The position numbers and the translations under genes are program-made. Source: Cryomorphaceae bacterium (GTDB lineage Bacteria > Bacteroidota > Bacteroidia > Flavobacteriales > BACL11). Taken from it: a stretch of DNA of 45,134 bases. Positions 27,163-27,975 of this stretch are shown here, piece by piece (the first letter of the stretch is position 1; the number at the start of each line of letters is the position of its first letter). Location: the NCBI GenBank assembly GCA_949511925.1, contig CATEYX010000039.1, positions 1 through 45,134 on the forward strand. Reading direction: 5' to 3'. Under the pieces are notes generated by a model. That model did no database searches, was not told the DNA's origin, and saw only the letters and a list, made by a program, of their open reading frames with translations.

Positions 27163-27975
27163 ATGAGAAGAGAAGGTAAAACTAGAAGAGACTTTAGCGA
27201 AAAACCAAATCCTAAAGCAAAATCTTCATTTCGTACTAAGCAGAATGAAAAAAAGACTGTGGATGACGGAAAAATGAGATTGAACAAATTCATTGCTAAT
27301 GCAGGAATTTGTAGCAGAAGAGAAGCCGATAAATTTATTGAAGCAGGTGTAGTGACGGTTAATGGTGTTGGCGTTACTGAAATGGGATTACGTGTGAGTA
27401 AGACTGATGAAATAAAATTCAATGGACAAAGACTTAAGTCAGATCCCCCAAGGTATGTGCTTTTAAACAAGCCTAAAAACTATTCTGGCAGAGTGAATAG
27501 CGATTCAAGTACTACCTCAGTAATGCAACTAATAAAACAAGCTTGTAAGGAAAGAGTTTATCCAGTTGACAAACTGAATAAAACAGAAACTGGATTATTA
27601 CTTTTCACAAACGATACTGACTTAGCAAAAAAACTAGGGGCTTCAAAAAAGAATATCAAAGAAATTTATCAAATCACATTGGATAAAAATTTAAGTCAAG
27701 TGCATCTTGAAAACATCCGAGAGGGAGTTTTCATGAATGGAAGAACTATTAACTTAGATTCAATATCCTACATAAACGGAAAAGATAAAAACGAGATTGG
27801 TATTGAAAATAGTAATGGAGGAATAAAATTAGTAAAACAGTTATTCGAAAAAATAAACTACAAGATCATAAAATTAGATAGAGTGTTTTTAGGTGGACTA
27901 ACTAAGAAAGATTTACCAAGAAAACATTATAGACATCTTACTCAAGATGAACTAAATATTTTAAGACGGCTTTAA
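27163..27975 (+). CDS. S4-domain RsuA/RluB-family pseudouridine synthase-like protein, catalytic Asp replaced by Asn
   Basis: S4 'MRLNKFIANAGICSRREADKFIEAGVVTVNG'; 'YVLLNKPKNY'; 'VYPVDKLNKTETGLLLFTND' aligns with canonical 'YPVGRLDRxTxGLLLLTND'; C-terminal 'KLDRVFLGGLTKKDLPRKHYRHLTQDEL'. Confidence 0.88.
   Translation: MRREGKTRRDFSEKPNPKAKSSFRTKQNEKKTVDDGKMRLNKFIANAGICSRREADKFIEAGVVTVNGVGVTEMGLRVSKTDEIKFNGQRLKSDPPRYVLLNKPKNYSGRVNSDSSTTSVMQLIKQACKERVYPVDKLNKTETGLLLFTNDTDLAKKLGASKKNIKEIYQITLDKNLSQVHLENIREGVFMNGRTINLDSISYINGKDKNEIGIENSNGGIKLVKQLFEKINYKIIKLDRVFLGGLTKKDLPRKHYRHLTQDELNILRRL

Follow-up and report, generated by a model that had tools for sequence, protein, structure and literature searches.

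Bacterial rRNA pseudouridine synthases pose a long-standing question, namely whether they are kept for the modification they introduce or for their binding to pre-ribosomes. The 45,134-nucleotide stretch of DNA analyzed here (the window) contains a gene that raises it in natural form, since the encoded protein carries an RNA-binding S4 domain and a pseudouridine synthase domain with Asn in the place of the catalytic Asp. We asked whether this protein has lost catalysis, whether its gene is maintained and, if so, for what function.

Catalytic residues of the window protein

Pfam recognized both domains of the window protein over the gathering cut-offs, in the order expected for the family, with an N-terminal S4 domain (PF01479, E 1e-10, residues 38-84) followed by PseudoU_synth_2 (PF00849, E 7e-10). 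The match to PF00849 was partial, covering residues 98-180 and only profile positions 2-84 of 152. Scores were well under every cut-off of the NCBIfam RluF, RsuA, RluB, and RluE models (66 bits vs. a cut-off of 290 bits for RluB). The features of the locus are collected in Table 1.

Table 1. Coordinates of the gene, its domains and motifs, and its neighbours in the window.
Feature	Position	Strand	Remarks
metG (methionyl-tRNA synthetase)	23901..25598	+	Conserved part of the neighbourhood
UPF0102/YraN family protein, upstream neighbour	26789..27139	+	Adjoins the gene in several relatives
Putative pseudo-RluB gene	27163..27975	+	270 aa, ATG start; S4 and degenerate RsuA/RluB-type pseudouridine synthase domain
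Basic N-terminal extension, residues 1-36	27163..27270	+	Fast evolving; dN/dS 0.08-0.2, the highest of the protein
S4 RNA-binding domain, residues 37-85	27271..27417	+	Arg52 (Arg17 of E. coli RluB) invariant
Motif II region VYPVDKLNKTETGLLLFTNDT	27556..27618	+	Contains Asn139 and Lys137
Tyr169 (Tyr140 of RluB)	27667..27669	+	Kept, from the alignment
Eroded motif III SNGGIKLVKQLF	27811..27846	+	Canonical form xxGRNRIVRRIF; Lys222 at the Arg194 position
824-aa protein, downstream	28036..30510	+	AsmA-like by appearance, without Pfam match; conserved neighbour
Histidine-kinase-type protein	30519..31730	+	Conserved neighbour; control for presence of the locus

Residues were mapped by aligning the window protein with E. 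coli RluB, RluF, and RsuA, and their roles were taken from the RNA complex of E. coli RluB (PMC3919597). The alignment bore out the original prediction that Asn replaces the catalytic Asp, as the codon aat at 27577-27579 codes for Asn139 in the column of Asp110 of RluB. Lys137 (aaa, 27571-27573) occupied the column of the base-flipping (intercalating) Arg108, and Lys222 that of Arg194 in motif III. Erosion of this last motif, also predicted, was more radical than claimed: NRIVRR had lost its Asn and every one of its three Arg, with Arg197/Arg198 of RluB replaced by Lys225/Gln226. The HPS bulge-binding loop (RluB loop 131-138) and the forefinger loop (ITT) were lost as well, whereas Tyr140 and the S4 anchor Arg17 persisted as Tyr169 and Arg52. 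The catalytic Asp is present in all known pseudouridine synthases, and its mutants in RsuA, RluA, TruA, and TruB are dead; RluB R108A has 0.6% of activity left and RluA with Lys or Met at the equivalent Arg is inactive (PMC3919597), so that Lys137 alone would predict inactivity. Three independent lesions, at the equivalents of Asp110, Arg108, and Arg194, thus predict the loss of catalysis, which is well supported by the alignment; the idea of a catalytically dead protein with a retained S4 domain, Arg52 included, has therefore gained strong support. An AlphaFold model from an 11-row alignment (mean pLDDT 66, pTM 0.39) was too poor for judging the pocket.

The protein could still be a pseudouridine synthase if a displaced nucleophile (Asp136 or another residue) or altered chemistry, the latter suggested originally as an alternative, had taken over. 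The sole stray Asp near Asn139 is Asp136, three residues upstream at the Gly position of GRLD; it stands alongside Asn139 in 16 of 21 Asn-bearing sequences, Gly-to-Asp accompanies Asp-to-Asn in several genera, and Tyr169 is kept. However, position 136 is not Asp in many other relatives that lack the catalytic Asp (GRLG, GKLN, NKLN, NRMG, GKLS), and the Asp that is universal in known synthases disappeared together with the Arg108 and Arg194 equivalents. The replacing residue also varied by lineage: in the RluB branch, 32/107 sequences had N, G, L, K, M, S, or E in place of the Asp. Altered chemistry, and a live synthase in general, is for these reasons very improbable.

An artefact of assembly or sequencing was also considered, because the window comes from a fragmented MAG (1.70 Mb in 206 contigs, completeness 90.7%, contamination 5.4%). 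This explanation was refuted by independent assemblies of the same genus, which carried DKLN at 75-98% identity; identical residues recurred in a dozen of them, Asn139 being present in every one of the 12 gene-bearing members of the genus, and analogous losses were present in complete single-contig genomes.

Orthology and gene neighbourhood

Five PF00849 genes were found in the window genome (the window gene, two near-identical RluF copies, and two RluA-type genes) and the same set was obtained in related genomes; no second RluB was found in either. In the trees the window gene lay within the RluB branch and the RluF rows formed a separate, strongly supported clade, to which the window protein did not belong, nor did it carry the GLNRQIRRM motif. 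The RluF of the window genome was intact and canonical (GRLDKPSEG, GLNRQIRRM), so a canonical enzyme of this type does exist elsewhere in the genome. Its two copies (L077 and L078) were located on the tiny contigs C183 and C200 and probably reflect strain redundancy of the MAG.

The order metG - esterase - (yraN) - rluB - 824-aa protein - histidine kinase - MsrAB was conserved throughout the family. It was the same in genus g9, where RluB is canonical (L127; GRLDRNTTG, GKNRIVRRIF), and most of it recurred in a second family of the order (f9, L139). Tree and gene order taken together indicated that the window gene is the RluB orthologue, and the sole RluB-branch gene of its genome, rather than a spare paralogue; the term paralogue used in the original prediction was wrong, as the gene corresponds to canonical RluB of related families. 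Named relatives of the gene were Flavobacteriales/'Cryomorphaceae' MAGs. The conserved block is adjoined in the window by an MsrB-MsrA fusion gene (31710-32552, minus strand), and further downstream a 2337-aa protein with SprB repeats and a CHU_C type IX secretion signal (36066-43079, minus strand) is probably a large surface adhesin.

Recurrent erosion and selective maintenance

The gene was present in 43 of the 52 genomes (15 genera) sampled from the family, in one as a fragment only, and no internal stop occurred in any copy. Genus g9 was canonical; in all other gene-bearing genera, one or more of the residues matching Arg108, Asp110, and Arg194 had been lost, in most cases two or all three. 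Motif II appeared as DKLN (window genus and others), DKLL, GRLG, NRMG, GKLN, NKLN, DKMK, or DTLN; GKLD occurred as well, in combination with a destroyed motif III. Nine family genomes in which the gene was not found were checked; they likewise gave no linked histidine-kinase gene or, in G071, a contig end adjoined, so these absences correspond to assembly gaps and not to proven losses; gene loss in G012 and others was rejected because the linked kinase gene was missing too.

Loss of the Asp extended to other Flavobacteriales families, including complete genomes without canonical RluB. In an order-level sample of 118 genomes (completeness of at least 95%), GRLG was found in the single-contig assemblies G104, G112, and G143 of family f3, GKLS in G139, and GRLE in G087 of f9, and eroded RluB was also encountered in genomes of 3.5-5.3 Mb. 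Nine eroded genomes were re-searched, and in all of them the eroded gene was the only RluB-branch member, accompanied by intact RluF and sometimes by a short RluE-like gene. On a tree built without the motif columns, at least seven Asp/non-Asp changes and at least four canonical/eroded changes were counted. The loss of catalytic residues has thus recurred in several Flavobacteriales lineages. RluB of genus g17 of f3 (L181-L183, L187, L190-L192), in large genomes of 3-5.5 Mb, kept the Asp and Arg108 but had xANVKVVRxIF or a similar sequence as motif III (Arg194 to Lys), possibly a half-way state.

Pairwise dN/dS of the window gene ranged from 0.04 to 0.07 across the genus (87-98% identity), with similar values for RluF in the same pairs, and S4 was the most constrained part (0-0.04). 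The eroded f3 pair G104/G143 gave 0.03, with dS near saturation. The Arg17 equivalent was invariant in 107/107 RluB-branch sequences. Mean identity among the eroded proteins of the family was higher in S4 (0.67) than in the catalytic domain (0.51), as against 0.59 and 0.60, respectively, in canonical RluB. Canonical RluB has 69 positions with conservation of at least 90%; the eroded proteins of the family keep 36 of them, mostly in S4 and the core, and many of the 33 others lie in the RNA cleft (forefinger loop, GRLD, HPS bulge loop, NRIVRR). The gene is therefore selectively maintained under strong purifying selection and is not decaying. A gene drifting towards loss as a pseudogene, with selection relaxed in small genomes, would account for the very divergent copies of several genera (G023, G036, G027) and for a catalytic domain less conserved than in canonical RluB; the low dN/dS, the unbroken frame in family members, the retention of the gene wherever the locus was assembled, and the same change in genomes of 3.5-5.3 Mb nevertheless make this reading very improbable. 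Catalytic residues lost under purifying selection on the coding sequence point to a selectively maintained pseudoenzyme, and the data describe RluB lineages in which such a pseudoenzyme has arisen naturally and more than once.

Possible function and comparison with known systems

The occurrence of RluF was compared with erosion of RluB. Among sampled genomes of at least 95% completeness, eroded RluB was found in 30 of 51 with RluF vs. 0 of 21 without it (Fisher test, P = 8e-7, ignoring relatedness). An independent-pairs test left 4 usable pairs, 0-2 of them in the expected direction and never the opposite; the association was not phylogenetically significant because relatedness leaves too few independent contrasts. 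No RluF match was obtained in five incomplete MAGs (76-89%) with eroded RluB (G009, G010, G016, G026, G065), most simply due to their incompleteness. Family f16 showed no RluF, and in the four of its 0.6-Mb genomes that were read (L199-L202), which are strongly reduced and probably endosymbiotic, canonical RluB was the sole enzyme of the RluB/RluF type; this suggests that a lineage cannot easily give up RluB when RluF is absent. In E. coli, RluF acts on U2604 and also, at a low level, on U2605 (PMC3919597). It is therefore plausible that catalysis by RluB is less needed in genomes that have RluF.

The target bases U2604 and U2605 were unchanged in the 23S rRNA of G024 and G033, the two dead-RluB genomes compared, and 23S rRNA of the window genus was not found in any MAG of the genus. 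Two other LSU rRNAs were set aside, that of G064 because it looked foreign and that of G023 (L115, contig C5) because it was very divergent, on a mitochondrial-looking contig in a bacterial MAG and probably a contamination.

The explanation that we favour, with somewhat more confidence than doubt, is that an RluB orthologue has turned into a selectively maintained pseudoenzyme that docks via its S4 domain and acts as a non-catalytic factor in large-subunit assembly. Pseudouridine formation by the window protein would be absent, and U2605 catalysis would have become dispensable, perhaps because RluF covers the stem-loop and with it any remaining need for pseudouridine at 2604/2605. The S4 domain would still dock on domain V of 23S rRNA (helix 93 region) or on a nearby pre-50S site, and the docked protein may serve as a folding or placeholder factor, so that the retained function would be a role in ribosome assembly. 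A wider version, in which RluB was converted convergently and repeatedly into a non-catalytic rRNA-binding assembly factor in Flavobacteriales while RluF took over the 2604/2605 stem-loop, is put forward tentatively, as a possibility slightly short of even. Stimulation of 50S assembly by RlmB and RlmL that have lost catalysis (PMC11194073) provides a precedent for the principle of a catalysis-independent role. In the E. coli delta-10 strain RluB gave no rescue of 50S assembly (PMC11194073), which counts against this reading and leaves an assembly role for RluB itself putative.

With erosion of the RNA-facing cleft and of the bulge-binding residues, the protein may also have lost its hold on the stem-loop of helix 93, or may bind it differently. 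Since this cleft is what grips helix 93, a non-ribosomal ligand becomes a real rival, although an unlikely one: the dead enzyme could be kept for an mRNA, a tRNA, or a protein partner bound via S4, with the old cleft as a protein interface. Such a function would agree with a pattern in which the elements specific for the stem-loop (forefinger loop ITT, HPS bulge loop, motif III) are lost while S4 and the core stay, and with new conserved blocks such as LLNKPKNYSGR in the window genus and nearby genera. Against it, Arg17, the anchor of the 23S stem-loop, is invariant and no genomic neighbour suggests another process.

If the assembly factor reading is true, these lineages amount to an experiment by nature in which the role of an rRNA-modifying enzyme as a protein is uncoupled from the modification it makes, as selection dropped the catalytic residues and kept the protein, which suggests a task connected with the ribosome for which no chemistry is required. 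The choice between modification and protein can be tested directly by comparing relatives whose RluB is live with those whose RluB is dead. Homology annotation would report pseudouridine 2605 in organisms possibly without it. No description of a naturally dead RluB was found in the literature searched (open-licence papers).

Among known systems, the closest is RluB itself, the 23S pseudouridine(2605) synthase of E. coli (PDB 4LAB/4LGT/9CL9), together with its canonical Flavobacteriales orthologues, which share the order of S4 and synthase domains. The window gene is orthologous to it by tree and also by neighbourhood in genus g9 of the same family; the equivalents of Arg17 and Tyr140 are kept, whereas those of Asp110, Arg108, Arg194, the bulge-binding loop 131-138, and the forefinger loop are replaced. 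RluF, the 23S pseudouridine(2604) synthase (PDB 3DH3), was the best PDB sequence match by score and has the same domain order, but it forms a separate branch and the window genome has its own canonical RluF. The likeness to RlmB E198A and RlmL N309A of E. coli (PMC11194073) concerns the proposed mode of action, in which the protein matters rather than the modification; those two are live methyltransferases inactivated by engineered mutations, whereas the dead state predicted for the window protein is natural.
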